A stretch of DNA of 64,000 bases from Bolinopsis microptera. Taxonomy: Eukaryota > Ctenophora > Tentaculata > Lobata > Bolinopsidae. The notes under the pieces are model-generated. The model ran no database searches and was not told the DNA's origin. It saw only the letters and a list, made by a program, of their open reading frames with translations. Of this stretch, positions 11,683 to 63,915 are shown one piece after another. Where the stretch lies: the NCBI RefSeq assembly GCF_026151205.1, contig NC_087072.1:2559375-2623374 (forward strand), read 5' to 3'. A program made the position numbers and the translations under genes. The stretch's first letter is position 1, and each line of letters starts with the position of its first letter.

Positions 11683-14600
11683 CTAATGATCCTGCTCTAC
11701 GGCTGTAGTCTTGCCGCCATCACACAGGTAGATGCTGTAGTGACCGGTTCTCTTGTACTCCAACACTTCTATGATGATGTATCCCACGAAGGAGACAGAT
11801 AGCCACCCCACTAGTATCCACATGAACGTCTGAAAAGGAGGGGTTTAGGGAGGGGCTATCTAATACCTTTAGGAGGGGCTATCTAAATTCTAATACCTTC
11901 AAGCGCAATTCCGGTATTCTTATCGAAAAGCGGCTTCATTTAATTTTTACGCGAACTGCATACCAATGACATACAATCATGCATATTTTGAAAGTTTGCT
12001 CTTACAATTCAGCCCGTGCCACGTATTATCAAATATTCAATTATTGCATATATTAATATATAATATACAATATACGTGGCAAAGAAACCTGTCAATTATT
12101 ACCAGGGTCTGTTAGACGGGCGATCAGGGGAATTGGTTTGGAAATTGGTTTAACTGATTACTAAGCTAAATCAAATAAACCGTTAACATTTCATCACTTT
12201 TAACACTGCATTAACCCAAGAGCAGAAAGTTAAATTACCACTTTTACTTTTTATTATTAATAAATTCTGTTCCACCGGAACGATATATAAAAACGGAAAG
12301 CTTAAACAGCGTGATATCTAAAGAATCATTTTGAGGCTGATGTAATAACTCACACTCAGCGTAAACAGCGTAAACAGCGTGATATCTAAAGAATCATTTT
12401 GAGGCTGATGTAATAACTCACACTCAGAACGATGTTGTTGCCGATCAGATAGGCTGCCAGGAACCCGAGACTTTCCCAAAGACGGTAGTTGGAGAAGGCT
12501 GGCTCCTCTTGGCCCGGGAAGATCACTCCGTAGAAAGCTGTAAAAATATCGTTTTAATTTAAAGAATTTTAAAACTTTCTGAAAATTCTTTTCTGTACAT
12601 ATTTACAAACTCATTGTTCAATATTTGATATGATCCTCAAAGGAAGTTAAATTTACAGTTAAACTTAGGCTGACAAGGCTTCTTTCTAGACAAGTTTTAA
12701 ACATTTTCCAAAGATTAGACAGATCAGGGAAATTGTTGTATTTATTATATTTCTATTTTCTTGTCATCTAATCTGTGCTGCCGCGTGCCAGGAATCCTTA
12801 GAAACCCCTTTCAGATGACCTTACCAAGGGGTCATTGGTCGAATTGAGGGGACAGGGAGTTGGTTTAGTAGACTAAAGCAACACTTTAACATACTCACAT
12901 ACGGTTCTGTAGGAGACACGCGTAAAGCTCATGACAAACACGCGAATCATTAAAATGAATAAATACAAAAGTTTATTACTGTATTGTTCTCTACTGTTAA
13001 CCGACATTCTTTTGGATTTCCTTTCGACAAAATTAGATATTTACATCAAATTTGAATAGAACATAGCCAGCGCACATTCCATAGGTCGCGTAGGTCACGT
13101 TTAATGTCTAAACACTGATGTGGTACATAATGGGGGAGCCACCTGGAATTGGATAAGGGGGGCGGGAACTATTTATAGCTCTATAGAGATTCGGAGATCA
13201 AAACATCGTGAACCAGAGAATGCTCAAATGAACTACTTGAGTATGGATAATAAGGATGAACAATATTTCGAGGCAGACGTGATTCTCTACCTAACTAGAT
13301 CTACCAAAGATCTGTTTTCTCTGCTTTACTAGAGAGACCCGTAATGGCCCTTCTCGCTGGGTCAACAGACCCTGCATTAAAACTGTCTGAATGAGCACAC
13401 ATTGGTGTCACTTTGTATCACATTTAGCACATACTGACTTTTATCAGTTCGCACTAATAATCTACTTCTACTGGGTAGGCGTTATGCCAGCTGCATTGTT
13501 AAAAATGTCGTTGTCGGTGCAAAAAGTTTAGAAAAATATACTGATGATCATACCAGAAAGTACGTGTTATCAAGTCTCTGGGGCAAGCCAACTGTAGACT
13601 GCTTTCGTAGAGTAGGAGACAGTCGGATATTAAGTTATATATAATATAGTCCATTACTCACCGACTATCAGGATATGCTGAGTATTATCATTCAATTTCT
13701 TTTTCAAATTCCCAAGATCCTTTATCGAAATGTTCTATGTGCTCGATAATGCTTGGAAATCGAATGAAGCAGTGTGTCCAGTCGATAATAAATTACCCCG
13801 AGTGTCGGCCGTAAATGGTGTCGGCCATTGGTCCTATAGGACTTCTTTAATATTTACGAACTTAATGACAATAACTACTCGCTACATGACCACTTCAGCA
13901 ATATGTTTATAAAATCATGCAAAAAAATAACCACAAAATTTTCAAATTTTCTTTAAAAATAGAGAGATCTTTTAAAAACAATGCTTTAGCCGATCACTTC
14001 CCCGGTATGATGTATTTAGCAAGTTATTTGGACGTTCTGTACCTTTATGATTGTTGATATCAAACTTTTGATAAGACTTTTCACTTGTTAGACGTTAGTT
14101 TACAGTTCATTGTACCCACAAAGGTTCTCCAGATCGGAAAAAATAAATTCATTCGCTATCCACTTTTCTGCCTCCCACGTTCGTGTTCACTTGCAAACAG
14201 ATGAACATATTCAATTGTTTAGGTAAATACTGATATCTGGATATTATCCGGTTGGAAGAGACAAGGACAAGTGAAACAAGGAAGTTAGGAGTAAGGGCAA
14301 ATTTTCGGCGTCATGATGTTTAGGTAAACGTAGGAATTTCCATCTCCAATCCAGCTTTATTGAGAACCTTCGTTCAGTTCATTATAAACTAGGGGTCGTT
14401 CATATATTACGTAATCAGGATGTGGGTTCCCAAATGATTACGCTAGTGTTATTTTGACACAATAGCTATGACGTATAAAACTGATTACGAAGGGGGGGTG
14501 TAAAAATTGTTCAAAAAGTGATTACGTAATATGTGAACAACCCCGTAGGAGAAAGTTATCCTCCTCCGCGGCAGTATGACCTAGACAGATCCTGTCGTGT

Positions 14601-17600
14601 TCATTTGACCTCCCAGACAACTGCCGGTGAGGATACGTTAGTAGTTTCAGCTTTATATGTTTCTACTCATGTGACTTCTGGCCAATAGAAAGAAGGAACT
14701 GGACACCTAATAATATAATGGTTATTCTAGTATTTCCTAAATTTATTCGGGAATTCTATTTTGATCTAGTATTGTGTAATAATATAATAAAATATAATGA
14801 CTTCAAGGCTTTGTAAAGTTACTGGGCTTATAACTCAGTTTGTAACACGTACTGTAATATGGTTCAGACTTTTGAAGTTGACCGTGAAACTTCTAGAATG
14901 ATCTTTATCAATAAATTTCATAGAAAAATGCATTAACCATGTCTGGTACCCATGTCTCAGTCACGTTAACGCATGATGACGTTAACACATAATGACGTTA
15001 ACGCGTGATGACGTTAACACATAATGACGATAACACATGATGACGTTAACAACGCATAATGCTATTACCAACCTTATAACTTTGTTTGTGATATACAGAC
15101 GGTAATATTATCCAGACTACAAACTTCGACGTTATTCTAGAATATTCTAGAATAATCTTTATCAATAAGTTTGGAAGCTTCATGAAAACATTCAAGTCTT
15201 GGAAAAATGCAGAACCCAAAACCTAATCGATATGTCTCATATGTTATTTAGTTACTCTTTAGTTACCAGGCCTCGAGTAATTTATAAATTCTCGGAGAAT
15301 ACTTATTTAATTTGTTTATGGGAGAGATACCGCTGGAAGGTGCAAAGTGTTCTCGTAGGTTCATTTCAGATTCCTTATACTTTTTGGCCATGGCATCTTT
15401 GAAAATCATGCATGGTTTGATTATGTAAAACATTTTTTTTAATACAGAAGAGCTTTATCTAAGAATATATAATAATGATAAGAATATATTTAATATATTA
15501 CGTTAAAATATTAATACAGCTGATGATTGACAAGTAAGTAATGAAATAAGTTATTTACTTAAAATAGCTTAAGTTTTATTCACAGACTTGAGTACATATT
15601 GCTTTACAGTTATCAACTTATGCGAAAATGTCCGGATTTCGCCTAAATCACCTGCCACCACCAACAATTACTTCACCGTTTAGCTTTGTTGAAAACTATA
15701 ACTATACTTTAACCAGAACATAACTTCCCTTCACTAAATTCCAGTAATTTCAGCTCGGTTAGTTCGATTACTTCATAATTAAATCACAATTTGGTTTAAG
15801 TGAAAACGGTTTGTTTAGCTATGTTTGTTAGCTGAACTCATCTTAAAAACACTGGAGTTCTAGAACAAATTATCGTTTTAATTCCTATTTGTATTTACCC
15901 AGAACAGTACAGATAATTCAGACAATCTGCAAAATTAACTTCTAATTTCCAAGTGCCACGCAATAGCCCGACTGATAAAATCAACTTGTCTTCCAGTACC
16001 GACAGGTGAAATTATAATAATTATTTTTATAATTCCTTCCATTTTTCTACCCCATCACGTGTAGCGAATAGTCTGGAGGAAGTAACAACTTGCCATTCAT
16101 TAATCTCAGATACACTTCAAGAAAGAGAAAAGGGGAACTTCTCCTTGAAAAATGGAACTAACGGTTAAAAAAGGAACTAACCGTTGAAAAAGGGAACTAA
16201 CCGTTAAAAAAGGAACTAACCGTTGAAAAAGGGAACTGACCGTTGAAAAGGGGAACTAACCGTTGAAAAAGGGAACTAACCGTTGAAAAAAGGGAACTAA
16301 CCGTTAAAAAGGGAACTAACCGTTGAAAAAGGGAACATACCGTTAAAAAAGGAACTAACCGTTGAAAAAGGGAACTAACCGTTAAAAAGGAACTAACCGT
16401 TGAAAAAGGGAACTGACCGTTAAAAAAGGAACTAACCATTGAAAAAGGGGAACTAACCGTTGAAAAGGGGAACTAACCGTTGAAAAAGGGAACTAACCGT
16501 TGAAAAAAGGGAACTAACCGTTAAAAAGGGAACTAACCGTTGAAAAAGGGAACTAACCGTTGAAAAGGGAACTAACCGTTGAAAAAGGGAACTAACCGTT
16601 GATTTGTGTTTGCCAAACAGCGTCGCCCATACCCCAGAGAATAGCAAAGAGGTAAAGGTAAGCTTTGTGTTCCACAGTTGGAGTCCAGTGTAACAGAATC
16701 AATATAACCGACATGTTGAACACCGCCGCTGAAAAAACATAGGTACTCAGAATTTAAAGCTATTTTTATAAATAAATTCCTAAGATGGATTATTTCTTAA
16801 GCGTCTGGCTGCACAAAATGCCAGGTATCGAATTGATTTGAATTTAGGACAATTTGGAAAATTCCTGTGATGGTTACTATAATCGATCCACGAAACTATT
16901 TAGCGTACCCATGAGGAAAACAGGAATTCTGCCAATTCTCTTGAGAATCCAGCCGAACAGGAAAGAGCAAATGGCATCAGTTGAGGCGTACACGATTATG
17001 ATGTATCCAATATTGTGAACTCCGATAGGACATGTAATGAACGCCTGGGGATGGGAAGTGGGATGAAATGTGGAGGGGATTAAGTTTATATAACAATCAC
17101 TCAATACACAGACTATTACCTAAGTTTGAGCCTTAAAATAAAGAGAAGATGACTAACAGCTGTGAAAGAAGCCCCAAACCATCCTTGCTCCAGCCCGCTC
17201 CAGATGGTGATGGGCATGATTAGCATCTGGTACTTATTCTTAGCAAAGTGGGAGAAGGTAGCCATCAGCAACTGTACTCCTGACTTACCCTGGGTAGTAT
17301 TAGTGAGTGAGGTAGTTCAAGTATTGAATAGAAATTTTAGTAAAAAACATAGATATGCTGACCTATTTTGGATTTGCGGTAGGTGCGTTGACAAACGCAA
17401 AATGTTCGTGAGAAAAAGTGATTATATTTGTAAATATGTTTATATCCTTCTTGAATTAGGATTTTGTCTCTACATGTTGGTCTTTGTTACAGTCCAAGTA
17501 GTAAAATGTATTATTTATTGACAACTGAGACGACAGTCTTCTTCTTGGTATTGACATAGAGTCGTCATGCTTAGGTTACAACTATCTTTTTAAAACTCTT

Positions 17601-20600
17601 TCTTTTTTGTGGTTATGATAAAGTATATAGTTTGTAACTTGTCGGGGTATAATCATATCTTAATCATCAACACACAACTTTGACAGCACTTTTCTGCCCG
17701 CAGTTTAACTATTCAGTTGACATGCTAGGGCCCAGGGGGTCTGAGCCAGTCTGCTAAGTATACCTATGCCTTTTGTTTTTCATCAGTATCCGGTCAAAAA
17801 GGGCGTGGAGATTGTTCATTTAAACGACATTACTTTATTATTGTCATTTAAACATAATTATAATTTAATCATAATTATCAAATTTTTTCAATAGTTGCTT
17901 TATAATCAACATTTCTTTACTATAATGCTAATAGATATTATATATTCGGCAACCTACTCATATACAACAGTTTATTTTTCGTAATAGCCTCGACAACCCT
18001 GTCCAAACAGGGTCAGTATCTATTATCTTATCATATTTTACTACAAATGCACGCTTCATGCCACTTTTGTTCGTTTGCTTCAAACCTTTTGTTCTTTTCG
18101 TTCGTCCTCCCCGTATTTAGATAGAGGATCTAGAAAGAAGAATATGATGGTAGGACCGATGATAGCGAAGACGAGGTAAATCCCTGCCAGCATGTAGACT
18201 TGTTCCTTAGCAACACCAGCCTCTTCCACCTCCCCTCCCTTGTCTGTAACCTCGGCTACCACGTCGTGTACTACCTTAAAGTTAGCTCCACACTGAGCTA
18301 GTCCTGCTGCATCAGGCTCCATCCAGTCGCTCTTTGGGGCTAGCACTAAGGGCACATTGTTTATCACTATAATTAAAGTTATGTATTCTCTTACATTAGT
18401 AAAAACAGGTAAACTCCGATTCATTGCACCTGATTAACCGTAAACCCTGATTTACCGTTACACCCTTTTGCTTTCAACCAAACATTTGGAAAAATTTATT
18501 TTTGTACTCGAACGGTATGAAACCTGTTTCAGCCCATCCCTATACGGAAAATGTTTCAATCCTATCTAATTACACATTACACAACGCATACACTCAATAA
18601 CGGAGATATACGACTTCTCGATAGTTACACGTCACTAACAAAGCTGCTCGTCATTTTCTCGTGGTCTGAGTCGCCGGTTACGGATATATTACCTCACCAT
18701 TTCGGGTATCATGAAAAAACGATTGGTATTTTCTGACGTCAAATAGCGGGTACTTTGTAAATGAACCTACATGTAAAATTAAAAGTGCGCAGTTAAATTA
18801 AATATAACGGGTAGATTCCGTGCTAAGTTGATATCCCCCAAAATCTGGTAATACGCCAAACTAAGTGATATGTGTTATATTGCTCTGCATAGTTGACAGT
18901 GAGCGCACAAATTTATCCAATATTCCCACTTTACTTGTCATGGTTTAGATATTGCCCCAGATGCCCCATTTTACTTGTCATGGTTAAGATATTGCCCCAG
19001 ATGCCCCACTTTACTTGTCATGGTTAAGATATTGCCCCAGATGCCCCACTTTACTTGTCATGGTTAAGATATTGCCCCAGATGCCCCACTTTACTTGTCA
19101 TGGTTAAGATATTGCCCCAGATGCCCCATTTTACTTGTCACGGTTAAGATATTGCCCCAGATGCCCAACTTTACCTGGGGAACCCTACACGAGGGCGTAG
19201 GACACAAGGGCGTTAGTTTCCTAAAAGAGTGAACATGAGGGCGAATCACAGGACTCACTTAAACATGGACACGAGGGCGGTACCAAACACCGTTTCATTT
19301 TAACTATTGTCTATAAGTGTCCACCTAATTTTACACACACAAATGATTAATTAATATATTTTAGCTTTTAACATATAGCCATATTCAATCATTTAATTAC
19401 ATCTTATGAAACTTTACTGGCAAAACATAAGATTAAACGGGTTTTTTTGATGTTCTCAACCGTCAGGTTGAGGTAAAGCTTAGCTCGAACAATTGGATCT
19501 ACTCACGTGTAAATTTGAAACAAAACGTACTGATGTGACAAATAATCACCCATATTTAAACGAGCCAAAAATTGAGAGATTTTCCTAAAATATCTCAGCC
19601 AACTCAGCAGCAGATTTTGGGGTTTGGTAACGTGCTTAAACCAATCAAACACTGCTTAAACGTTCATCAGTTCATGTGACAAATTCGGTCTTGTGATTGT
19701 CGCAGTCGCTATCAGGGGTAGCACGTACCAGGACGGGTATTCACTTTGGGCAGTCTAATTTTACTGAGGTGTGTTCACTCCATTTCAAACCATCAGTTCT
19801 CCCATTTAAAACGGCCATTAGTACTTACTTCCTCTCAATAAATTTGTAAACTACTAAATAGGCCTGCTGATAATAAGTTATCACATATTAGTATTACGCA
19901 AGCCAGATATTAGTAATTTAATTTGATGTTTTTCATCATAATCATACAAATGACCAAACCGTTGAGTGAACGATTGTCAAATTGATTTAGGCTTTTATTT
20001 GTTTGCCTAACCGTCTTTGCTTCAGCCTTTTTGGTTTTAATCGAGTTGAATGATTGAATATTGCTATATGGTAACAGCTAAAATATATTAATGTGTATAA
20101 AAGTAGGTTGACGCTTTTTTTTTTTTTTTTTTAATCTAGACACTTATTTTACTTCGGTGTATTCCAACAGCCACAATGTTACACAAGTGCAACCAGCCAA
20201 TTACAGGAAGCCGAAGGATCTTTTTTGGCCAGTGACGGTTAAGGTAGTGTGTACCATACTTTCTTCGTCCGAGACTTTGCTGCAATGTGCAGCTCCTCAT
20301 TTAACCCTCACACCCGATTTCTCGAGTATTCGGCTGAGTAGACCGGGGGGCTGCATAGACCACTCATGATCCTTAGCTGAACGTCGACGACGCTCACCCC
20401 ACGACCAGGCAGTCAGTGGGTTTCGAACTCGCAACCTAACGATTGTAAGACAGGCGTTCTAACCAACTGCGCTACCTGGCCGCTTATTTATAAACAAAAG
20501 TTAAAATGAAATTTTGTGATGTTACAAGTTTATTACTAGTTCATCATTTAGGACGGTGTTTGGTTTTGCCCCCCCCCCCCCCCCCCCCCCCATGTTAAAG

Positions 20601-23600
20601 TTACTCATCTGATTCGCCCTCATGTTCACCCTTTTAGGAAAGTAACGCCCTTGTGTTTTACACCCTCGTGTCCTCCGTTCTTGTCTCCTCCACCTCGTAT
20701 CTACCGCTCTTGTCTCCTTTACCCATTTACCTGTTGTACTTACAATATTGCCCCAGATGCCCCACTTTACCTGTTGCGGTGACGATGTTGCCCCAGATGC
20801 CCCATGTCTGGAACATGCAGAAGAAGATCCCAAAGAACCGGTTAATCAGGACCTCCGAGCTAGTCCCCTTCACTTTGGCGACGTAGGTTCCCATCTGCGA
20901 CAGGTAGGTGCACTTTGCAGACCACATTGGGGCCGCCGCCAATCCTGCAAATTATCTCCAATTAGACATGACGGGCAAAGGAAGATTAATAATTCCTGAT
21001 AATCGTAATTAGGACCCTTTTCGGGGCACAAGTTCAGGACCACAGTGGAGATTATTCATGAGTACAGCGTAATTTGTGGAGTAAGATTTTGCAGCCTACT
21101 ACACGTGCCCTAGTTTGACAAGAACTTTAGTTGTCGAAATAAAGCACGTGAATTGCAGCCTACTACACTTGTCTGCACTCTGCAGGCCTGTGAAAACGTA
21201 TTTAATTGCCGGCCATACTACAGGTCGGACTTCTGGCCGGACTTCTGGTCGGACTTCTGGTCGGACTTCTGGTCGGACTTCTGGTCGGAATTCTGGTCGG
21301 TCTTCTGGTCAGACTTATGGTCAGACTTATGGTCAGACATCTGGTCGGACTTCTGGTCGGACTTCTGGTCGGACTTCTGGTCGGACTTCTGGTCGGACTT
21401 CTGGTCGGACTTCTGGTCGGACTTCTGGTCGGACTTCTGGTCGGACTTCTGGTCGGACTTCTGGTCGGACTTCAACGGAAAACCAAATATGGAAAGTGAA
21501 TAATCTCTCAACTGTAAAGTCATTGGAGTCCAGTCTCTGGTCTATGTCTCCGGCTTCTATTAACAATAATGATGTCTACTCACTTCTCACTATTCATCAT
21601 CGTTATTGACTCCTCTATAACGTATAAGGTAACCTGCTATCATGACACACAATAGATATTTAGAGCTAGCTATTCTCATTCCTTGTTTTGACACATGACT
21701 GATTAACAAAGCGTATGGCGTACTATTTGATGAATAATGAGTAATGGCATGTTTAACTACGAACGATATAAACTCTAGCACCTACCTCTACCTATCGTTT
21801 CTGGATTTTTGTAACGGTCGAAATGAAAGGAAAAAATTACACATCATGATCCATCAGGCAGTAGCTTTGATTTATTCTATTCACTCCGAAAAACTAAATT
21901 TTGATGCGGTGTCATTAACTGTTCAAAAAAGAGTGTATCAATTTTCATTTTTGTGAAGTCTAGTTTGAGTCAAAGTCGCCGGAGCCTGCAGGAGTCGCGA
22001 AAAATCCAGCTGAATTGAATTCTTGAGATAAAAGACCCATTGTTACAATTTTAATTAACAAAAGACATTGATTTGCAGCTCAGCTCAATTACCATTTATT
22101 ATTTTGTTAATCACGTTATCTCTTCACCCTGCTGTGAATTAAGGTAAATTAATTAAATCTGTACTCTGTAGGTGAACTAAAAGCTGTTGTAAGTGGCACC
22201 CATGATTAGATTTAGATTGGGGCAGTGGGTACCTTATACCGAATACCGATGTTAAACAATTTACAGAAACTGAGTGTTTTAAATCATTTATCGAGTTTTT
22301 GTAGCCTAATAATAATAAAAAACAGTCCCACACATTACCGAGAAGAATGGAGGACGGGATGAGGGTTCCCCATTTAGGGTAGAATTGAGCGGCGATGTAG
22401 AGAGTATACATAGCTTGACACACCACTAAAGACAACTTCACCTTCAACCTGGCATATTGGACATTGGGTGATTTAAAACTGAAATCAATTCGAATTTTAA
22501 TAATTAAATTTTTGACCTACAACGTAATGGCCAAAATGGTTAAATATCAAAATATGAACTCTTCGGGTTGTTCGGGTGAATGGTTGATTTAGACGCCGTG
22601 ATTCCATATTAGTATCGAAGTATATTAATACAGGCATATTGGTGTCCTAAGTCCTTGATGATTTGTCTTTTAATATTCGGCAGAATAAATTAATAAATTA
22701 TGCTAAATACTCCCAAAATGCAGTCCCCCTCTCATTAACTTACTAATTAGCCGATATCAGCCACTTTCCAGATGTTTATTTGATTCACAAGGATATAAGT
22801 ATATGGACAACTGTAGGGTGTGGCTATTAAGTTGCAGTCCTACCACCCAGGTATATCTTTACTAGCACTTTGGAATTTCAAACTTGGTCAGTTTAATTAG
22901 GTGATGGTATCTACCACACTGGAAATTCCAGTTTTAATTTTTGGGCTAAGGAATTTGTATCATTAATTTGTATCATTTTGTTGACTCAAGTTGTCAAACA
23001 GTATAAGTTTAGTTGTCTCACCTCGGGCGTCCCCTACTTACGTTTTAATGAATATGGTAGGTAAGAAGAATAATGAGTAATGGCATGTTTAACTACGAAC
23101 GTAACCAGGTAACCAGGTAACCAGGTAACCAGGTAACCAGGTAACCAGGTAACCAGGTAACCAGGTAACCAGGTAACCAGGTAACCAGGTAACTACTTAC
23201 GTTTTAATGAATATGGTAGGTAAGAAGAAGCAGCTCAGGATGATGGTTGCGTAGATGATAGCTAACGTGTAGACCCCTATACCGTCACTCGGGTTCAGAG
23301 AAGACTGGAGGGCTGCCATGTTCTGCAACAGGGCCATTGTTTACGGCATCATGTACAATTATACCTACTTAAAATTCTAACAATATCAGAGGTTACTAAC
23401 CACACTGCAGTTACCTAACCACTGTGGTTAGGTATGTTCGCTATGTAGATACTGTTAGTTAGTATGGTCACAGTGGCTCTGATCTCATTAAAGAAAATTC
23501 TGCTGTGTGTAGAGGAATAATACCTGGAATGCGGTGAACAGGAACATGAAACCAAATCCAATGACCATGACATTCTTCCACACGTTAAGTTCATCTCTCC

Positions 23601-24343
23601 GCGTCCATGTGTTCTGAAAATATGAAATTATTACAGCATTCGCCAAAAATCAAAATCTTCTTCATCAGAAAAGCCTTATATCTGGCTGCAAGATGAACCT
23701 TATTTGTTTTGACAAGTGAGCACCTAAAATTTAGTGTGTATATTTAGTGTGTATATTTAGTGTGTATATTGAGGAAGAGTTCATCCGCAACTTAGTTTTT
23801 TAGTGCTACGAGTGCGCCTGTCCGCTAGTAAAACTAGACAGCAGCAGGAAGGTATTAAAATAGGAATCCAACCTAGCTGTTCTCTTGTTTGCTGGTTCTC
23901 TTGTTATTTAGATTTTCCATCCATCCAGGCTCCAACCTAATCTCATCTTCATAATCGTATAAATATATATAAGGCAAAGGGAGTCTTAGTCTTACTGTGC
24001 CATGACTTGTTTACTGAATATGCAATAGGTTGCCAACTACTATGCGGAGGAAATTTCCATTTTCACACGGAGAGGACTTTACGAACATGTCCCTGAGGAG
24101 AGGACCTAAGTTTATCTCGTGTGATGTCCGTGATGTAAGCGTGATGTCCGTGATGTAGGAGTCAGATGAGGCTACTCAAGACTACATATTCATATCTTGA
24201 TGGCACATACCCGTAGTAAACCAAAAGTCGACGCGTAAAGGTTTTGACGCATATTTAGCTCATCGCAAATCAAAACGGGTTGATATTTTTGCAGCTGTTA
24301 CGTCCAACTCCGATTCAGAACTCACTTGCTTGATGGTAACCAT
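11683..24343 (-). CDS. UNC93A: UNC93A-like major-facilitator membrane protein, 11 exons
   Basis: Exons in order of transcription are 24326-24343, 23524-23613, 23201-23322, 22339-22448, 20771-20944, 18086-18345, 17158-17271, 16909-17044, 16597-16728, 12422-12537 and 11683-11829. Phases agree at every junction and the total is 1419 nt, or 472 residues (human UNC93A is close to 457). Family hallmarks include GFMFLFTAFQ, LQSSL, then SILLG, AAPMWSAKCTYL, NRFFGIFF, QTWGIWGN, IWSGLEQGWFGASFTAAF and NYRLWESLGF. Many hydrophobic segments fit a 12-TM fold. UNC-93 proteins associate with membrane channels or receptors; the biochemical activity of UNC93A is not settled. The ATG has good context (accATGG) and a GTGAGT donor six codons later. 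Four of its ten donors are associated with tandem duplications. An alternative acceptor for exon 17158-17271 exists eight bases upstream, but its phase does not fit. Confidence 0.93.
12303..12427 (-). repeat. 68-bp two-copy tandem duplication of a UNC93A 5' splice site
   Basis: Two near-identical copies with a 68-bp period. The copy next to the exon contains the real junction (on the gene strand CTGAGT|GTGAGTTATTAC), and the second copy repeats the same donor in the intron. This is the smallest of several junction-spanning duplications in this gene. Confidence 0.85.
14392..14544. mobile_element. MITE-like TIR element, third copy of the 9.7-kb family
   Basis: The left end ggggtcgttcatatattacg and right end gtaatatgtgaacaacccc are inverted copies of each other and match the elements at 9751-9875 and 9947-10386. 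It is about 150 bp long, non-coding, and sits in the long UNC93A intron. Confidence 0.7.
14965..15062. repeat. Short 16-bp tandem array in a UNC93A intron
   Basis: About six imperfect copies of a unit such as acgttaacacataatg, with alternating acataatg and gcatgatg forms. It is intronic and not near an exon junction. Confidence 0.7.
16138..16600 (-). repeat. 20-bp minisatellite made of a UNC93A 5' splice site
   Basis: Roughly 22 copies of a 20-bp unit (plus strand aactaaccgttgaaaaaggg). On the gene strand each unit reads TTTTTCAACG|GTTAGTTCCC. The real junction of exon 16597-16728 is AAATCAACG|GTTAGTTCCC. The array therefore begins at the authentic donor and repeats the last five exon bases plus the donor into the intron. 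Variants differ mainly in the length of the A/T run. Reading frames across it are repeat artefacts. Confidence 0.9.
18927..19171 (-). repeat. 40-bp minisatellite derived from a UNC93A exon end
   Basis: About six copies of a 40-bp unit. On the gene strand the unit contains ATCTGGGGCAATATC and then a donor-like ACAAGTAAAG. The end of exon 20771-20944 reads ATCTGGGGCAACATCGTC, and its 40 bases up to and across the donor (ACAG|GTAAAGTGGGGC) align with the unit without gaps. A further partial copy directly follows the real donor at about 20715-20770. This array lies about 1.6 kb into the intron. Confidence 0.85.
20280..20482 (-). mobile_element. tRNA-derived SINE, copy A
   Basis: On the minus strand the element starts with a tRNA-like head containing an A-box-like stretch (TAGCGCAGTTGG) and a B-box-like GAGTTCGAAAC. 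Acceptor-like ends GGCCAGG and CCTGGTC can pair, but extra bases sit between the T arm and the 3' acceptor strand, so it is not a functional tRNA. The body shares GAGGGTTAAATGA, ACTCAGC and CTATGC blocks, in the same order, with the element at 39660-39845. It lies in a UNC93A intron and ends near a C-run. Confidence 0.65.
21225..21475. repeat. 12-bp minisatellite
   Basis: About 20 copies of ggacttctggtc, with a few tcagacttatgg variants. The unit is a multiple of three without stops, so long frames open on both strands (for example SGRT repeats). They have no start or splice context and are not genes. It lies in the UNC93A intron between exons 22339-22448 and 20771-20944. Confidence 0.9.
23040..23232 (-). 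repeat. Duplicated exon end flanking an 8-bp array in UNC93A
   Basis: The end of exon 23201-23322, including its donor (gene strand CCATATTCATTAAAAC|GTAA), is duplicated about 159 bases into the intron at 23040-23073. Between the two copies lies an array of the 8-bp unit ggtaacca at about 23101-23192. The stretch aataatgagtaatggcatg at about 23069-23100 also occurs near 21731-21763, which indicates further local shuffling. Confidence 0.8.
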
Positions 24344-24792
24344 GGTAACATAGTCCCTGTCGTTACTAGACTACTGTGTGTGATCGAGCTTCTGGAACTA
24401 GACAGTTCACATCACGTGATTTGTTGCACAATGGTGTACAGACCATCTGAATAGGGTCTCGGACCCTATTCAGATGGTCTGTACACCATTCAAATTAACT
24501 TTGTAGAAGCATGATGCTAACACATTTTGTGATGCTTTAGTATTACATGTATTACAAATTCGCACGATATCTGTCAATCGTTTATCGTAAAACTTCATGA
24601 AGACTATACAGTTTACACAATGTTCGTGTTCCGTGAGAGATTACTGCTTACAACGAAATATCTCCCGATTTTATGCAATTCTATCACGGAAATCAATATA
24701 AATCCACTCATTTAAATGATTCGAATGTTTTTACTTTCTAAAAGTTCCTTTTCGTTTCAATCTCATCATGAAACTGTTTTAGTGTTTTAGAA
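24344..24792. promoter_or_regulatory. Head-to-head intergenic region between UNC93A and the CCP-domain gene
   Basis: The start codons of UNC93A (minus, 24343) and of the secreted CCP gene (plus, 24793) are 449 bases apart and point away from each other, so this must hold both promoters and 5' UTRs unless further 5' exons exist. No clear TATA box is seen. The main feature is the perfect inverted repeat at 24430-24490. Confidence 0.6.
24430..24490. repeat. Perfect 29-bp inverted repeat with 3-base spacer
   Basis: Arms 24430-24458 and 24462-24490 are exact reverse complements around the trinucleotide tcg. As RNA this would be a very stable hairpin; as DNA it could form a cruciform. It lies about 90 bases upstream of the UNC93A ATG, so it could fall in that 5' UTR, and about 300 bases upstream of the other start. 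Confidence 0.95.
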
Positions 24793-27700
24793 ATGATAGC
24801 AAGAACATTGTTGAAAGCACTGGTTATCTCAGCAGCTGTCTCACTGATACAGGGTACTACTTTGTTTTGTTACTTTTGTCCAAACATAAAATATATCGGA
24901 TATTTCCATAATCCACTTGGTTGAAAAGATAGCAAGATATCAGTCTATTTTATGGTACCACCATCTAAAACGACATGAAGTTATAAAAATTTAAATTTCA
25001 TCGTTGAGATCAAGTCAGCGCACGGACTATGTAATTAATTAATGTTATTTTCAGGGTGGACTTCAATTTCTGCCGGAACGACGATAACCGCTGAAAGCGA
25101 TGAGGTTCAGTCACTCCGATTGAAAACTGTAGGCTCAGGACACTTTGATATCCATTTCTCTCCAAGTGTGGCTTTCGAATGTGAGCTGACGAGCAGCACA
25201 ACCTACATCATGTTTGACCTCCACCCTTGTACAGATGGACCGGAAAACTGCTGTATGATGAGGAACATCCCCACAGGCAACACAAGAATCTGGACCTTCT
25301 CTATCTCCAAACTCTCCAACGAGCTGTACCTGGAATGTGAGGCCAATGGAGTGAGCAACAGGGTAATGTCAGTGTCACAATCTACACTCAGCAGCTGTCT
25401 GACTGTGGAGCAGTTCCGCAACCTCCTCACCCAAGTGGAGGTGTACAGTGACGACGCAGTGACAAGGGAGTACAGTATAACATGTAAGTAACATCTGACA
25501 AGGGAGTACAGTATAACATGTAAGTAACATCTGACAAGGGAGTACAGTATTACATGTAAGTAACATCTGACAAGGGAGTACAGTATAACATGTAAGTAAC
25601 ATCTGACAAGGGAGTACAGTATAACATGTAAGTAACATCTGACAAGGGAGTACAGTATTACATGTAAGTAACATCTGACAAGGGAGTACAGTATTACATG
25701 TAAGTAACATCTGACAAGGGAGTACAGTATTACATGTAAGTAACATCTGACAAGGGAGTACAGTATAACATGTAAGTAACATCTGACAAGGGAGTACAGT
25801 ATTACATGTAAGTAACATCTAACAAGGGAGTACAGTATTACATGTAAGTAACATCTGACAAGGGAGTACAGTATTACATGTAAGTAACATCTGACAAGGG
25901 AGTACAGTATAACATGTAAGTAACATCTGACAAGGGAGTACAGTATTACATGTAAGTAACATCTGACAAGGGAGTACAGTATAACATGTAAGTAACATCT
26001 GACAAGGGAGTACAGTATAACATGTAAGTAACATCTGACAAGGGAGTACAGTATAACATGTAAGTAACATCTGACAAGGGAGTACAGTATTACATGTAAG
26101 TAACATCTGACAAGGGAGTACAGTATTACATGTAAGTAACATCTGACAAGGGAGTACAGTATAACATGTAAGTAACATCTGACAAGGGAGTACAGTATAA
26201 CATGTAAGTAACATCTGACAAGGGAGTACAGTATAACATGTAAGTAACATCTGACAAGGGAGTACAGTATAACATGTAAGTAACATCTGACAAGGGAGTA
26301 CAGTATTACATGTAAGTAACATCTGACAAGGGAGTACAGTATTACATGTAAGTAACATCTGACAAGGGAGTACAGTATAACATGTAAGTAACATCTGACA
26401 AGGGAGTACAGTATAACATGTAAGTAACATCTGACAAGGGAGTACAGTATAACATGTAAGTAACATCTGACAAGGGAGTGCAGTATAACATGTAAGTAAC
26501 ATCTGACAAGGGAGTACAGTATAACATGTAAGTAACATCTGACAAGGGAGTACAGTATTACATGTAAGTAACATCTGACAAGGGAGTACAGTATAGCATG
26601 TAAGTAACATCTGACAAGGGAGTACAGTATTACATGTAAGTAACATCTGACAAGGGAGTACAGTATTACATGTAAGTAACATCTGACAAGGGAGTACAGT
26701 ATAACATGTAAGTAACATCTGACAAGGGAGTACAGTATTACATGTAAGTAACATCTGACAAGGGAGTACAGTATAACATGTAAGTAACATCTGACAAGGG
26801 AGTACAGTATAACATGTAAGTAACATCTGACAAGGGAGTACAGTATTACATGTAAGTAACATCTGACAAGGGAGTACAGTATAACATGTAAGTAACATCT
26901 GACAAGGGAGTACAGTATTACATGTAAGTAACATCTGACAAGGGAGTACAGTATAACATGTAAGTAACATCTGACAAGGGAGTACAGTATAACATGTAAG
27001 TAACATCTGACAAGGGAGTACAGTATAACATGTAAGTAACATCTGACAAGGGAGTACAGTATTACATGTAAGTAACATCTGACAAGGGAGTACAGTATAA
27101 CATGTAAGTTACATCTGACAAGGGAGTACAGTATAACATGTAAGTAACATCTGACAAGGGAGTACAGTATAACATGTAAGTAACATCTGACAAGGGAGTA
27201 CAGTATTACATGTAAGTAACATCTGACAAGGGAGTACAGTATAACATGTAAGTAACATCTGACAAGGGAGTACAGTATTACATGTAAGTAACATCTGACA
27301 AGGGAGTACAGTATAACATGTAAGTAACATCTGACTTAGGACTGTTATTACCTCGTGTGTCTAGCTTACATCCAATCAATCTATATCTACTATCGGTTTA
27401 GCATAATATCCAAACTGTTTACTGTTTAGTCGGGGGTAATGATGGGGAGGTGGTCAAATTGTATTTAACACGTGACAGAGAAACTGGGATCTGATTGGTT
27501 AGTAGTGCTGGCTGATTGGTTAGAAGGTGTAATGCTGGGATCTGATTGGTCGGTAGTGCTGACTGATTGGTTAGAAGGTGTATTGCTGGGATCTGATTGG
27601 TCGGTAGTGCTGGCTGATTGGTTAGAAGGTGTAATACTGGGATCTGATTGGTCGGTAGTGCTGGCTGATTGGTTAGAAGGTGTATTGCTGGGATCTGATT

Positions 27701-28278: not shown

Positions 28279-28334
28279 GTAAGTGTTACACTTCATGCAC
28301 ACTGCATAATATACAGCGCATAACTAATCTACCC

Positions 28335-29107
28335 CATCATACTATCAGCAGATCAACCCCACCATATTATCAGCAGATCAACCCCACCATATTATCAGCA
28401 GATCAACCCCACCATACTATCAGCAGATCAACCCCACCATACTATCAGCAGATCAACCCCACCATATTATCAGCAGATCAACCCCACCATACTATCAGCA
28501 GATCAACCCCACCATACTATCAGCAGATCAACCCCACCATACTATCAGCAGATCAACCCCACCATACTATCAGCAGATCAACCCCACCATACTATCAGCA
28601 GATCAACCCCACCATACTATCAGCAGATCAACCCCACCATACTATCAGCAGATCAACCCCACCATACTATCAGCAGATCAACCCCACCATACTATCAGCA
28701 GATCAACCCCACCATACTATCAGCAGATCAACCCCACCATACTATCAGCAGATCAACCCCACCATACTATCAGCAGATCAACCCCACCATACTATCAGCA
28801 GATCAACCCCACCATACTATCAGCAGATCAACCCCACCATACTATCAGCAGATCAACCCCACCATACTATCAGCAGATCAACCCCACCATACTATCAGCA
28901 GATCAACCCCACCATACTATCAGCAGATCAACCCCACCATACTATCAGCAGATCAACCCCACCATACTATCAGCAGATCAACCCCACCATACTATCAGCA
29001 GATCAACCCCACCATACTATCAGCAGATCAACCCCACCATACTATCAGCAGATCAACCCCACCATACTATCAGCAGATCAACCCCACCATACTATCAGCA
29101 GATCAAC
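28335..29107 (+). repeat. 25-bp x about 31 minisatellite after the CCP exon
   Basis: About 31 nearly identical copies of a 25-bp unit (cagcagatcaaccccacc plus atactat). None of the three frames of the unit has a stop, so a continuous frame runs from the CCP exon through the array. That does not imply translation, since a strong GTAAGT donor lies before the array. Each unit contains an acceptor-like actatcag. Confidence 0.9.
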
Positions 29108-29967: not shown

Positions 29968-30075
29968 AAGGTACGGTAAATTGGGGTACGCTAAATCGGG
30001 GTACGCTAAATCGGGGTACGCTAAATCGGGGTACGCTAAATCGGGGTACGCTAAATCGGGGAACGCTAAATTGGG
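29968..30075 (+). repeat. 15-bp minisatellite
   Basis: About seven copies of ggggtacgctaaatc, with degenerate copies at each end. It lies in non-coding sequence downstream of the CCP gene array. Confidence 0.8.
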
Positions 30076-30213
30076 CAAATAACTTAATGATTGTTGGGGA
30101 AGCATGTATTTATAATTGTTAACATTCGCCAGATATCACTGCATTGGTTATGACACATCTCATCCTTGTAAAAGATCAATTTCCTTAACAAAGATATCGA
30201 ACACTCACACAAG

Positions 30214-36030: not shown

Positions 36031-36494
36031 TAGAATTTGAAAATATGTATGAAATTATGAACTTGCTGCGCAGCGCGTGTTGTTCAAATTCTACAAATTT
36101 GTTAAAAGTTTGCTTTGTCATTTGTGCATTTTCCTAAACCAGTATAATTTTTGATTTATTAATTTTTTAATTTATTTGTATGCGCTTAGCTTCTCTCAGC
36201 AGTTCAGGTGTAAAAATTGAGAAAATGAAACAAATGTGCGCAAATTAGGAAATGGGCGAGCAGCTGTAATTCATTGCTGGGGTTTGTGGTAAGTTTTCGA
36301 TTTACGATGACTGTTGACGGATGATTATAATCAATGATACTTTTGATTGACGATGTCAATCCTTCGCATCTCGCCGATCTGCGAGAAAATGCGCGGCGCG
36401 ACCCAGTAGTGCATCGCGCTACAATGATACTCGTCCAAATTTCTTCGAAGTAGCGCGCGCCGCTTTTTTCTCGAAATATTGTGTAGCTCTCCAA

Positions 36495-59000: not shown

Positions 59001-62000
59001 AAGAGCAGGTAGGTTAGGGTCAAGTATGGGGGGGGGGGGCACAGTACACGTCCTGTTAACAGCAGGTAGGTTAGGGTCAAGTATGGGGGGGGGGGGGGCA
59101 CAGTACACGTCCTGTTAAGAGCAGGTAGGTTAGGGTCAAGTATGGGGGGGGGGGCACAGTACACGTCCTGTTAAGAGCAGGTAGGTTAGGGTCAAGTATG
59201 GGGGGGGGGGGCACAGTACACGTCCTGTTAAGAGCAGGTAGGTTAGGGTCAAGTATGGGGGGGGGGGGGCACAGTACACGTCCTGTTAACAGCAGGTAGG
59301 TTAGGGTCAAGTATGGGGGGGGGGGGGGCACAGTACACGTCCTGTTAAGAGCAGGTAGGTTAGGGTCAAGTATGGGGGGGGGGGGGGACACAGTACACGT
59401 CCTGTTAAGAGCAGGTAGGTTAGGGTCAAGTATGGGGGGGGGGGGGGCACAGTACACGTCCTGTTAAGAGCAGGTAGGTTAGGGTCAAGTATGGGGGGGG
59501 GCACAGTACACGTCCTGTTAAGAGCAGGTAGGTTAGGTTCAAGTATGGGGGGGGGGGGGGCACAGTACACGTCCTGTTAAGAGCAGGTAGGTTAGGGTCA
59601 AGTATGGGGGGGGGGGGCACAGTACACGTCCTGTTAAGAGCAGGTAGGTTAGGGTCAAGTATGGGGGGGGGGGGGGGCACAGTACACGTCCTGTTAAGAG
59701 CAGGTAGGTTAGGTTCAAGTATGGGGGGGGGGGGGCACAGTACACGTCCTGTTAAGAGCAGGTAGGTTAGGGTCAAGTATGGGGGGGGGGGCACAGTACA
59801 CGTCCTGTTAAGAGCAGGTAGGTTAGGGTCAAGTATGGGGGGGGGGCACAGTACACGTCCTGTTAAGAGCAGGTAGGTTAGGGTCAAGTATGGGGGGGGG
59901 GGGACACAGTACACGTCCTGTTAAGAGCAGGTAGGTTAGGGTCAAGTATGGGGGGGGGGGGGGGCACAGTACACGTCCTGTTAAGAGCAGGTAGGTTAGG
60001 GTCAAGTATGGGGGGGGGGGGCACAGTACACGTCCTGTTAAGAGCAGGTAGGTTAGGGTCAAGTATGGGGGGGGGGGCACAGTACACGTCCTGTTAAGAG
60101 CAGGTAGGTTAGGGTCAAGTATGGGGGGGGGGGGGGCACAGTACACGTCCTGTTAAGAGCAGGTAGGTTAGGGTCAAGTATGGGGGGGGGGGCACAGTAC
60201 ACGTCCTGTTAAGAGCAGGTAGGTTAGGGTCAAGTATGGGGGGGGGGGACACAGTACACGTCCTGTTAAGAGCAGGTAGGTTAGGGTCAAGTATGGGGGG
60301 GGGGGGGGCACAGTACACGTCCTGTTAAGAGCAGGTAGGTTAGGGTCAAGTATGGGGGGGGGGGGATACATTACACGTCCTGTTAAGAGCAGGTAGGTTA
60401 GGGTCAAGTATGGGGGGGGGCACAGTACACGTCCTGTTAAGAGCAGGTAGGTTAGGGTCAAGTATGGGGGGGGGGGACACAGTACACGTCCTGTTAAGAG
60501 CAGGTAGGTTAGGGTCAAGTATGGGGGGGGGGGCACAGTACACGTCCTGTTAAGAGCAGGTAGGTTAGGGTCAAGTATGGGGGGGGGGGGGATACAGTAC
60601 ACGTCCTGTTAAGAGCAGGTAGGTTAGGGTCAAGTATGGGGGGGGGGGGACACAGCACACGTCCTGTTAAGAGCAGGTAGGTTAGGGTCAAGTATAGGGG
60701 GGGGGGGGGGACACAGTACACGTCCTGTTAAGAGCAGGTAGGTTAGGGTCAAGTATGGGGGGGGGGGACACAGTACACGTCCTGTTAAGAGCAGGTAGGT
60801 TAGGGTCAAGTATGGGGGGGGGGGACACAGTACACGTCCTGTTAAGAGCAGGTAGGTTAGGGTCAAGTATGGGGGGGGGGGGGGACACAGTACACGTCCT
60901 GTTAAGAGCAGGTAGGTTAGGGTCAAGTATGGGGGGGGGGACACAGTACACGTCCTGTTAAGAGCAGGTAGGTTAGGGTCAAGTATGGGGGGGGGGGGGA
61001 CACAGTACACGTCCTGTTAAGAGCAGGTAGGTTAGGGTCAAGTATGGGGGGGGGGGGGCACAGTACACGTCCTGTTAAGAGCAGGTAGGTTAGGGTTAAG
61101 TATGGGGGGGGGGGGCACAGTACACGTCCTGTTAAGAGCAGGTAGGTTAGGGTTAAGTATGGGGGGGGGGGGCAGTACACGTCCTGTTAAGAGCAGGTAG
61201 GTTAGGGTTAAGTATGGGGGGGGGGGGGACACAGTACACGTCCTGTTAAGAGCAGGTAGGTTAGGGTTAAGTATGGGGGGGGACACAGTACACGTCCTGT
61301 TAAGAGCAGGTAGGTTAGGGTTAAGTATGGGGGGGGGGCACAGTACACGTCCTGTTAAGAGCAGGTAGGTTAGGGTTAAGTATGGGGGGGGGGGGGGCAC
61401 AGTACACGTCCTGTATGGGGGGGGGGGCACAGTACACGTCCTGTTAAGAGCAGGTAGGTTAGGGTCAAGTATGGAGGGGGGGGGGGAACAGTACACGTCC
61501 TGTTAAGAGCAGGTAGGTTAGGGTTAAGTATGGGGGGGGGGGGGGGGGCACAGTACACGTCCTGTTAAGAGCAGGTAGGTTTGGGTTAAGTATGGCGAGC
61601 ATTCCAATCCGCGCGTGCAAGAAAAATCTACTCAGTTACCGACGATAATTGAACTCGTGACCCCTGGTTTGCAAGACCAGTGCTCTAACCACCGAGCTAC
61701 GGAGGCACTTACTGCTCTGTTAAGGGTCCTATTAATAGATAAAATCCATCTGATTCTCTTGCCCTCTAATTCAAATTCGAGAGTTTTTTGACGTTAAAAT
61801 GCTTATGCGGAAAAGAACCACCACTATAAGACACCTCTTTACACTTCACCTTGAGAGAATCCATCATGAGAGGGAGACCAGCGTCAGGGCCATCTATATG
61901 TAGGGGTAACTGCATGGCTCCCTTGTTGAGTACCACCGAGGGGTCCGTTGCTTCTGCTTCCAGGACAGTACCACGCTTGCAGAACAGATTTAGCAGACTG

Positions 62001-63915
62001 TAACCTACTGTTGTCAGCTGTCCTGAACATCTAGATTAAATCTCCTTGTATTTCCACTGACGTAACCGGTAAAACATATTGAAAAGTAACTCATGAAATA
62101 AGCCAGGATGGTACAGCCCGTAATCAGTTATCAGCTCACAGAACTTACCTGTTATAGCGTGTAGAGTGTATAACTTCAGCACTGTGATACTAGTTTTTGG
62201 CAGGTCTCCAGGAAGCTTGACGCTGTACTTGTAGATTGGGTTGTAGATATCACTGTCCAGCACCACACTGGATGAGATCTGGGGTCCCAATATGTTGAAG
62301 TCCCGGTCGAATATCCTACCAGTTACTCGTGAGATTGTCACACAGGAGGGTAGGTAACGTGCCCCGTCTGTTTTGGGGGGAGATGGGGCACACTGGTGGG
62401 GGAGATAGCTGTTAGTAACAGGTGGGGCACACTGGTGGGGCACACTGGTGGGGCACACTGGTGGGGCACACTGGTGGGGCACACTGGTTGGAGCACACTG
62501 GTGGGGACCAACAAGGATTACCGGTGTCAGAGGGGGGTGGGGATGGATTATGGTCGACTATGTCAGGGGGGGGGGGGGGGGTGGATTATGTCACTATGTC
62601 AGGGGAGTTAGGATAATAAGTATAGATCCGTAGGGTAACAGATATGTTTCTACTCAAAATACTTGATACATAGCTGCAGAAGTTAGTAGGTATTAATTAA
62701 AAATGGTGAGATATTTTTTATAAACGACAAATCTTAGTATACCTATTATCAGAGTTATTGATCTGTTTTTGTCATGTACCGTAAAGTTTGGTTTCGGTTC
62801 CACATGTCTGAATGCCCCTGAAGTTAGATTCCAATTATTCTAAAATCACATTTATATTCTCCTATCAGTCTTGGACGAATCCAAGCTTCGATATTCTACA
62901 CCCTATTCAATTACAGTATAGTTCTTACCTGAATCAGGAATCAAGTACAGATATCGAACTTAAGTATTTAATGGCTGACTACATAGCTGCTGACCAGTAG
63001 GTAGTCTTGGTTGAGGGAGGAGGAAATAGTCATCTGGTCGGTCAGGGAAACGAGGCGTCCACTCTTTAGAGTCGTAGTACCTGACCAGTAATCCGCTGTT
63101 AGCAATCCTAGTGAACTCCTCCTCAACAGTGGCAATGTCGTTTGTCTCAAGCTCTTCCAGCCACTGGGAGAGCATATGGGTGATTTTATCAACAAAAAAA
63201 TAGGTTTAAGTTTTGAGCGCTGAACGATAAGAGATCAATAAAAACTTTGAACACAATTTTCTCACCTGAGCGAGTTTGGAGAAGGAGGGAATAGGAGGTT
63301 TGAACACCTCCAGCTCCAGCCTCTTATCTGAATAGAGCGCCCAGCTCCACCCAACTACATTGCTCTCTCCATCCTTGTAAGTAAATATCAGCACTATCTC
63401 CTCCTGGTTCCAGGCTAGCTCCAGTGTCTTGTAATCTAAAGAGTACTGGTTGAGAAGGGTTGTGCGACAGGCTGAGAAGAGGAGGGGAAGGAGACACTGT
63501 TCTTTATGTTATACTCCTCATCAATCTCACAGTACTGCACGTGAACAGAGAGTGAGGGTGGTAAAGAGGGCTGGTTGAGGATCAGGGTGTGGTAGTGTAG
63601 TCCCTTGATTCTTTCGGGGGTTTCAGTTGGTTCAGGTGGCTCTGGAACTGGAAGCAGTTCAACTGCAGGTGTCGCGGTTTTAGCAGGGGCTGGCATCGGT
63701 CTGATAGGTGTCGATTTGTTGCCTTTTCGGAGTATCTAGGAATGTTTTGTTAGAAACGATGAGATTGAAGGCTACAGAGAGTGAGGGGAAATTTCAATGA
63801 ATTGAAATATTTTGATAACGACTGGGGGCGAATAAGGTAACAATTTTAAACCTTGATTGGGTCGAAGTCGTCAGGAGGGCCGTAGGTTTCAGTTACTTTC
63901 TCTTGCGATTGGTTT
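53071..63915 (-). CDS. C-terminal 11 exons of a large unrecognised protein (5' end outside window)
   Basis: Exons in transcription order: 63852-63915, 63531-63735, 63266-63471, 62995-63163, 62149-62367, 61850-62022, 55784-55980, 55199-55457, 54565-54765, 54183-54395, 53071-53205. They join in phase to 679 residues plus one partial codon, ending QQMSESRDFIQ. A Pro/Glu-rich linker (VPEPPEPTETPE) is followed by alternating beta-strand-like segments such as LSVHVQY, IVLIFTYKDG, VVGWSWALYSDKRLELEVF, LLVRYYDSKEW, RYLPSCVTISRVTGRIF, YKYSVKLPGDLP and MVGWVQIQIFSHAGP. These suggest C2-like or other beta-sandwich modules, but I cannot name the family. Membrane segments are not apparent. The small intron 63472-63530 (59 bases) is inferred from a frame change with good GTGAGA and TTCTCAG sites. 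The acceptor of exon 55199-55457 was chosen by phase. Confidence 0.78.
53464..54177 (-). repeat. 31-bp minisatellite repeating a 5' splice site of the large gene
   Basis: About 22 copies of a 31-bp unit. On the gene strand each reads CACAGTGGTAGAG|GTATAACACG. The real end of exon 54183-54395 reads TGCAGTGGTAGAG|GTATAGCA. The array therefore repeats about 12 exon bases and the donor into the intron, starting at the exon edge. Both outermost intervals carry an extra gttataatattt spacer. A shift to any downstream copy would add 31 bases per copy and change the frame. Confidence 0.93.
55981..61590 (-). repeat. 5.6-kb array of about 95 copies of a complete 3' splice site
   Basis: Units of about 56-64 bp vary mostly in a homopolymer of 8-20 G (plus strand). 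On the gene strand each unit reads C-run, atacttgaccctaacctacc, tgctcttaacag|GACGTGTACTGTG. That is a polypyrimidine/C tract, a CTAAC branch-point-like word, an AACAG acceptor, and the first 13 or so bases of exon 55784-55980, which begins GACGTGTACTGTGTCCCC. The unit next to the exon is the functional site. The plus strand carries one TTAGGG and one long G-run per unit. All open frames in the array on either strand are repeat artefacts. Confidence 0.95.
61635..61706 (-). pseudogene. tRNA-like sequence with TGC anticodon, degenerate
   Basis: The minus strand folds into a recognisable tRNA: GCCTCCG acceptor 5' strand, D arm with GCTC and GAGC, anticodon stem CTGGT/ACCAG with loop CTTGCAA (anticodon TGC, Ala), and a T arm ACGAG TTCAATT ATCGT. 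The 3' acceptor strand CGGTAAC pairs at only four of seven positions and one T-stem pair is lost. It is most likely a tRNA pseudogene or a SINE head. It lies between the 5.6-kb array and exon 61850-62022. Confidence 0.6.
62393..62505 (-). repeat. 13-bp minisatellite just upstream of an acceptor
   Basis: About seven copies of ggggcacactggt, some truncated. The array ends roughly 25 bases upstream (gene sense) of the acceptor of exon 62149-62367, so its C-rich gene-strand sequence (ACCAGTGTGCCCC) adjoins that acceptor's tract. Unlike the other arrays, it does not include exon sequence. Confidence 0.8.

Follow-up and report, generated by a model that had tools for sequence, protein, structure and literature searches.

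How often do tandem repeats lie across the boundaries between exons and introns, and why? The question is raised by a 64-kb stretch of the Bolinopsis microptera genome (hereafter the window), for which the initial annotation listed eight tandem repeats containing or derived from a splice junction. At seven of the eight sites (five donors and two acceptors) the predicted or inferred junction does lie within a duplicated unit, reached at 54183 via a degenerate outer copy; at the eighth, donor 23201, the array is intronic, 8 bp from the junction. The reported copy numbers of 2 to about 95 agree with our measurements, which run from duplications of 1.9–2.1 copies to a 57-bp unit repeated 95 times. 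Units of up to about 160 bp were not recovered; the measured range is 8–68 bp.

Four of the sites are donors of UNC93A, on the minus strand. TRF, the sequence and the gene finder agree on a 68-bp ×1.9 duplication over donor 12422 (12299..12427), with 5–6 bp of the exon at 12537-12422 inside the duplicated unit, and on a 20-bp ×24 array that includes donor 16597 (TCAACG|GTTAGTT; 16127..16602). A 40-bp ×2.1 duplication (20722..20805; TRF and sequence) takes in an exon end, with about 34 exonic bp covered, and donor 20771, a donor read by eye where the gene finder missed it and extended the exon to 20731. In the same intron, separated by 1.5 kb of other DNA, is a 40-bp ×6 array (18925..19174; TRF and comparison) built from a divergent version of the unit at the 20771 junction. 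The 8-bp ×11.6 array near donor 23201 (23101..23193; TRF and sequence) does not include the junction, its edge lying at 23193, inside the intron.

The remaining sites fall in three other genes. On the plus strand, a CCP/Sushi gene donor carries a 36-bp ×52 array (25460..27335; TRF, sequence and gene finder). Its unit joins 24 exonic and 12 intronic bp, the donor GTAAGT is present in each copy, and the authentic donor follows 25483. On the minus strand, two identical 42-bp copies with a spacing of 47 overlie a saposin-gene acceptor (51664..51752; sequence and gene finder); they are missing from the TRF list, and the exon start is 51672 by the gene finder and 51679 by the initial annotation. The last gene, also on the minus strand, has two arrays, each seen with TRF, sequence and gene finder. 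The first is a 31-bp ×21 array plus degenerate outer copy over donor 54183 (53500..54195). The TRF array itself (53500-54150) ends 33 bp before the junction, which is reached only via the outer copy, a 16-bp exact copy at 54178-54193. The second is the 57-bp ×95 array (55963..61414), whose units contain an AG acceptor and exon start, and from which the gene model uses acceptor 55980.

Exon boundaries here come from homology and gene models built on the genome sequence alone. Window exons were called with a gene finder trained on kinesin and myosin exons of the B. microptera genome, which masks array interiors beyond one unit and is thereby biased toward exon-proximal sites. Its exon edges were exact at 12422, 16597, 23201, 25483, 54183, and 55980. 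The hand-joined UNC93A exons match Pfam UNC-93 (E = 2.9e-25, residues 21-398) and UNC93B1 in PDB (E = 1.6e-18). For the gene carrying 54183 and 55980, searches found zero relatives in PDB to E = 1 and zero families in Pfam to E = 0.01. A second haplotype or paralogue, sought in the assembly for two window stretches, was not found.

With hand-edited gene models, the 33 introns of the window hold 18 arrays, of which six span a junction (seven with 54183); the 18 and the six each include the saposin duplication, a manual addition. Uniform single-seed placement would give 1.86 spanning arrays (P = 0.004), or, for TRF arrays alone, 1.73 against five of 17 observed (P = 0.016), in both cases for a window picked for this feature. 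The statement that about half of the repeats touch a junction holds for intronic arrays (8/18, including 54183 and 23201) and fails for all 30 merged arrays in the whole window.

Junction-spanning arrays are dispersed across the genome and are not peculiar to one locus. In a blind sample of 102 kinesin and myosin introns, whose 204 junctions were fixed through Pfam hits, seven junctions (five donors and two acceptors) are spanned by tandem arrays. These junctions were sought within 45–60 bp of the end of the Pfam hit, which partly builds in the exon-proximal choice, and the counts keep four introns that stem from recent gene duplications. In 20 fixed 10-kb pieces, six predicted junctions are spanned, three of them doubtful (two in L002 and one in L009); homology supports the L015 acceptor exon only, and the gene finder may favour arrays.

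Tandem repeats of this kind have a precedent. The ‘mirages’ of amphioxus are minisatellite-like tandem duplications of exon–intron boundaries (PMC3087553), described in the available portions of two papers from Adh3, the globins BflGb6 and BflGb9, troponin C, and PGBD5 (PMC3087553; PMC3902484). As in Bolinopsis, those accounts cover both types of splice site, donor and acceptor, in several genes, with units some tens of bp long and many copies with intact AG/GT. The unit includes the exon–intron boundary at the seven window sites and seven blind junctions given above, and both 5′ and 3′ boundaries are duplicated in the window and in the kinesin/myosin sample. The Bolinopsis cases differ in phylum, in copy numbers of up to 52 and 95, and in having a blind frequency. 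They are also known only as genomic DNA, whereas the accessible text on amphioxus reports both undisturbed splicing and length instability (PMC3087553). We place the Bolinopsis arrays among the mirages, a type of repeat already described and here found in another phylum; in the parts of the literature available to us, mirages appear in lancelets only. Introners, as far as the available text describes them, are likewise intron-related repeats, but consist of copies inserted in many genes (PMC9860276), whereas all 28 exact matches of the CCP unit genome-wide lie inside its own array. For this unit, the only one so tested, and by exact matches only, a dispersed element or introner is not supported.

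We think it likely that the arrays are mirage-type minisatellites that began as duplications of an exon edge, were tolerated through proximal-site splicing, and then expanded within the intron. A local tandem duplication would happen across the exon edge, leaving in the intron a duplicate of the exon end together with its splice site. Splicing would stay with the exon-adjacent copy (the 5′-most donor or the 3′-most acceptor), and because of this the protein would be unharmed. The chosen site would be the one nearest to its partner across the exon, as exon definition would favour. Surplus copies would be roughly neutral intron DNA, and could expand and homogenize like other minisatellites, to about 95 copies. 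Two-copy cases (kin19, kin59, 12422, and 51672) occur alongside arrays of 25–95 copies.

Reading through from the exon-proximal donor, a stop is met within 19 codons at all 11 sites examined (ten junction arrays and 23201; the L004 and L015 donors lie outside this set). The stop falls inside the first unit at nine sites and just beyond it in kin10 and 20771, whose 53-bp and 40-bp units shift the frame. Given these early stops, only the proximal site is expected to yield normal protein. The suggestion in the initial annotation that selection tolerates repeats at junctions fits this result.

The splice-core columns of the copies are less variable than other columns (8/63 versus 76/300 across ten arrays, P = 0.03). 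This runs against pure neutrality, on variants that are few and non-independent. In acceptor arrays, up to 94 upstream acceptors would be bypassed, which would require a strong proximal preference.

Each array sets nearly identical splice sites, as many as about 95 in a row, in natural competition with one another, so that RNA from the animal would reveal the copy chosen by the spliceosome and test for exon definition. Arrays at some 3% of the junctions sampled in this ctenophore suggest a general route of intron growth.

How far junctions attract such arrays bears on two further readings. In the first, minisatellites form uniformly along introns that are short enough for many to overlap junctions by chance, with tolerance alone and no attraction; we give this an even prospect. 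Introns of the kinesin/myosin sample have a median length of 265 bp, and 17% of interior intron points fall within arrays versus 20/13,077 exon points, with 0/196 points 40 bp into exons covered. Because introns are this short and array-rich, the order-of-magnitude excess implied by the initial annotation is too large. Two controls fixed beforehand and run last found no excess. Arrays scoring at least 50 cover 7/196 junctions versus 12/188 points 100 bp inside introns (8/196 versus 12/188 at a score of at least 40), and 5/174 junctions of the fixed pieces are covered versus 14.7 under circular shifts.

In both controls a long array is scored anew wherever it covers a point, and because they thus compare present coverage and not births, we also used a null in which each array is collapsed to one unit. 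This null was picked after the data were seen, and excludes units below 8 bp and low-complexity units in all three datasets (kinesin/myosin, window, and fixed pieces). Its first form, on 400-bp pieces that arrays filled, expected 8.5 against the seven observed, and its second, for which our own finder allowed no gaps and so broke up gapped arrays, expected 11. The third form (TRF, whole introns, with long introns 18, 27, 64, and 100 left out and none of their junctions spanned) expected 3.4 (P = 0.04), or 1.9 for a strict class defined after the fact (P = 0.0005). For the fixed pieces the expectation is 2.1 against six (P = 0.012), or against three minus the doubtful cases. Depending on the null, junction enrichment over introns at large ranges from no excess to about two- to fourfold.

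The excesses, that of the ascertained window included, count against chance and tolerance alone and are what speaks for the second reading, in which junctions are mutational hotspots and breaks tied to splicing or transcription (R-loops, paused polymerase, nascent RNA structure) set off tandem duplication at exon edges. This reading would be an addition to the mirage-type explanation and not an exclusive rival. A GC preference of seeds was rejected as the source of the strict excess, which survives it (expectation 1.9 to 2.6). The interior-point and circular-shift controls, the first two forms of the null, the reduced count in the fixed pieces, and the post hoc strict class all weigh against a hotspot. 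The controls without excess led us to lower it from a tentative possibility to an unlikely one, and to raise chance with tolerance from tentative to its present standing. They likewise lowered, from doubtful to unlikely, a broader reading in which Bolinopsis junctions are duplication hotspots, thousands of introns carry junction-born arrays as a mark left by splicing or transcription, and the arrays display exon definition genome-wide. A junction excess, if confirmed, would link splicing to mutation. Reuse of AG/GT words, offered earlier as a cause, is not supported, with donor-like words in 3/26 interior units versus 2.2 in random intron windows (26 of 43 non-spanning arrays, hand-picked and mostly with longer units).

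It is very improbable that the arrays are makers of introns. Intron gain by tandem duplication has a published model and cases (PMC4974935; PMC3087553, as far as their available text goes), and the array units do include exon sequence. The gain described in the accessible part of PMC4974935 likewise involves tandem duplication of DNA that includes both exon sequence and splice signals, but in Bolinopsis existing junctions are duplicated and introns lengthen. In 7/7 blind junction arrays the array holds only one intron end, and the duplicated unit does not supply both splice sites. Positions common to other kinesins were found for 1–2 of seven array introns versus 12–25 of 52 others, depending on tolerance, in what is a weak test that leaves room for some young introns; in profile coordinates, the kin11 intron matches one of another kinesin in both position and phase. 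Retention of the copies for a function, such as redundant or regulated splice sites, would fit the lower splice-core variability but is highly implausible, as inner-donor use leads to stops or frame shifts at 11/11 sites and the variation test is built on few, non-independent variants.

In a pair of duplicate kinesin introns, one is longer by about 940 bp. This extra length is no junction array; it is an inserted element whose ends are inverted, accompanied by an 8-bp target repeat.

Repeats built from exon-intron junctions are real and widespread in the B. microptera genome. We studied an assembly of 264.65 Mb in 232 contigs, in which the window lies at C1:2,559,375-2,623,374 (C1 is 26,206,493 bp long). 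Exons were called with an exon-chaining gene finder whose splice matrices and codon scores were trained on the kinesin and myosin genes of the same genome, and TRF returned fifty-eight rows at a score of at least 40 in the window. The initial annotation had listed eight repeats that contain or derive from a splice junction, and reading of the individual sites together with the gene finder bears out most of them. At the CCP-gene donor (25483), the unit consists of 24 exonic and 12 intronic bp including GTAAGT and is present in 52 copies. At the acceptor at 55980, approximately 95 units each carry the acceptor and the start of the exon. The duplicated unit also contains the junction at the UNC93A donors 12422, 16597, and 20771 (the last read by eye from the sequence; the gene finder placed it at 20731) and at the saposin-gene acceptor (51672-51679). 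At 54183, a donor of the same gene as 55980, the main array ends 33 bp before the junction and a degenerate outer copy extends over it. The UNC93A donor at 23201 does not belong in the list, as its array begins 8 bp within the intron and leaves the junction outside. One array (18925-19174) derives from a junction from which it has since become detached: its unit is a copy, now diverged, of the unit at 20771.

The joined UNC93A exons yield a protein matching Pfam UNC-93 (E = 2.9e-25) and UNC93B1 in PDB (E = 1.6e-18). The CCP and saposin genes have Pfam matches to Sushi and SapB, respectively, while Pfam and PDB searches found no relative of the gene containing 54183 and 55980. Downstream of a CCP exon, a 25-bp array of 31 copies (28327-29107) may be an additional junction array, because it runs a few bp into an uncertain predicted exon that starts at 29099.

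Two samples outside the window, kinesin/myosin introns and 10-kb pieces, were fixed prior to inspection. The first comprises 102 introns, each between successive kinesin or myosin exon matches. GT/AG junctions were assigned to all 102 with the frame kept, the latter by construction; the offset across the intron equals the profile gap in 73/102 and is at most two codons off in 92/102. TRF arrays (score at least 50) span 5/102 donors and 2/102 acceptors, and a score of at least 40 adds one weak donor case with a 13-bp unit. In one example the unit is 26 exonic bp plus GTAAGTG (approximately 53 copies), and in a second it is 30 exonic bp plus GTAAG (25 copies). One further intron holds a spaced copy of approximately the first 57 bp of its own exon. 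The twenty 10-kb pieces, at set positions on C1-C10, contain 87 predicted introns with 174 junctions, of which six are spanned by arrays. The exon 3' of a spanned acceptor in piece L015 matches PDB 2vxg (CG6181; E = 6e-4), presumably the decapping factor Ge-1. The spanned donors in L015 and L004 appear sound in sequence but are based on the gene finder, and the spanned junctions in L002 and L009 are doubtful.

Repeats of this kind are already known; what is striking here is the copy number and the host. In the mirages of amphioxus, to whose genes PMC3902484 adds PGBD5 and troponin C, the unit likewise includes an exon-intron boundary, and both 5' and 3' boundaries are duplicated. The boundaries in the present genome come from homology and a gene model. 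Searches of open-licence papers, judged by titles and the start of abstracts, turned up nothing that looks like a report of such repeats in ctenophores. The part of the Hormiphora genome paper that puts tandem repeats at 13% of that genome does not mention junction-related repeats alongside that figure.

Whether junctions carry more repeats than chance depends on the quantity counted, coverage or arrays. The two controls set beforehand measure present-day coverage of points, not array counts. Among the kinesin/myosin introns, arrays cover 7/196 junctions (8/196 at a score of at least 40), 12/188 points 100 bp within introns, and 0/196 points 40 bp into exons; in the 10-kb pieces, five junctions are covered versus 14.7 under circular shifts. 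Given the interior-point and circular-shift results, junction coverage is not above that of introns at large, and it is far above that of exons. The coverage measure gives long arrays heavy weight. In a further count every array, reduced to a single unit, entered once and was positioned uniformly along the introns, which are short (median length 265 bp, quartiles 165 and 864). By this count, 7/50 kinesin/myosin arrays span a junction versus 3.4 expected (P = 0.04), and in a class picked after the fact, with units of at least 20 bp and scores of at least 100, 7/18 do so versus 1.9 (P = 0.0005). The window, itself selected for its junction repeats, gives 6/18 versus 1.9 (P = 0.004), or 5/17 with TRF arrays alone (P = 0.016). 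The 10-kb pieces give 6/40 versus 2.1 (P = 0.012), with three remaining when doubtful cases are dropped. Two earlier versions of this null showed no excess. Neither GC preference nor splice-like words explain the excess in the class picked after the fact. An excess at junctions is possible but unproven. The duplication mechanism that the initial annotation offered as one of two options may operate; the coverage controls speak against it and the once-per-array count for it, and its evidence is weaker than was thought. With three doubtful cases removed, the spanned junctions of the three samples comprise 12 donors and 5 acceptors, and this surplus of donors is not significant (two-sided binomial approximately 0.14, calculated by hand).

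A tandem duplication over a donor would produce the order exon-donor-copy-donor, and one over an acceptor the mirror image. Splicing would then use the exon-proximal site and thereby preserve the protein. Reading beyond the first donor reaches a stop within 19 codons at 11/11 donor sites examined, so an intact protein is expected only with the exon-proximal site. This predicted choice fits exon definition, an established concept, because for donors and acceptors alike the exon-proximal site is closest to its partner across the exon. Copies tolerated in this way could then expand within the intron; cases with 2 and with 95 copies are both present. The CCP unit was most likely born in place, since all 28 of its exact genome matches lie inside its own array. 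Across ten arrays, 8/63 splice-core columns are variable versus 76/300 others (P = 0.03, with variants few and non-independent), a hint of lower variation in the splice core.

Several other features were observed at these loci. An identical 21-bp minisatellite flanks one exon on either side in kinesin introns 45 and 46 (L076, L078) and adjoins a spaced copy of roughly the initial 57 bp of the exon. In kinesin intron 61 (L096, L159, L097), an acceptor-born 21-bp array is split by inserted DNA that has inverted ends, is bordered by TTAA at both sides, and resembles a piggyBac-type element. Two near-identical kinesin duplicates on C13 (L086 versus L089, L157, and L090) differ in the length of one intron. 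The extra DNA of approximately 940 bp is an inserted element that shows inverted ends together with an 8-bp target repeat and carries a minisatellite of its own. In the window, a coding tandem repeat (3711-3830, PAQLAPVQL-like) lies within a long open frame whose protein presumably resembles the AT-hook type. An open frame at 36351-37421 resembles reverse transcriptase, with a Pfam RVT_1 match under the cut-off, and is a retroelement remnant. Homeodomain matches in the genome number 72 at E <= 1e-8.
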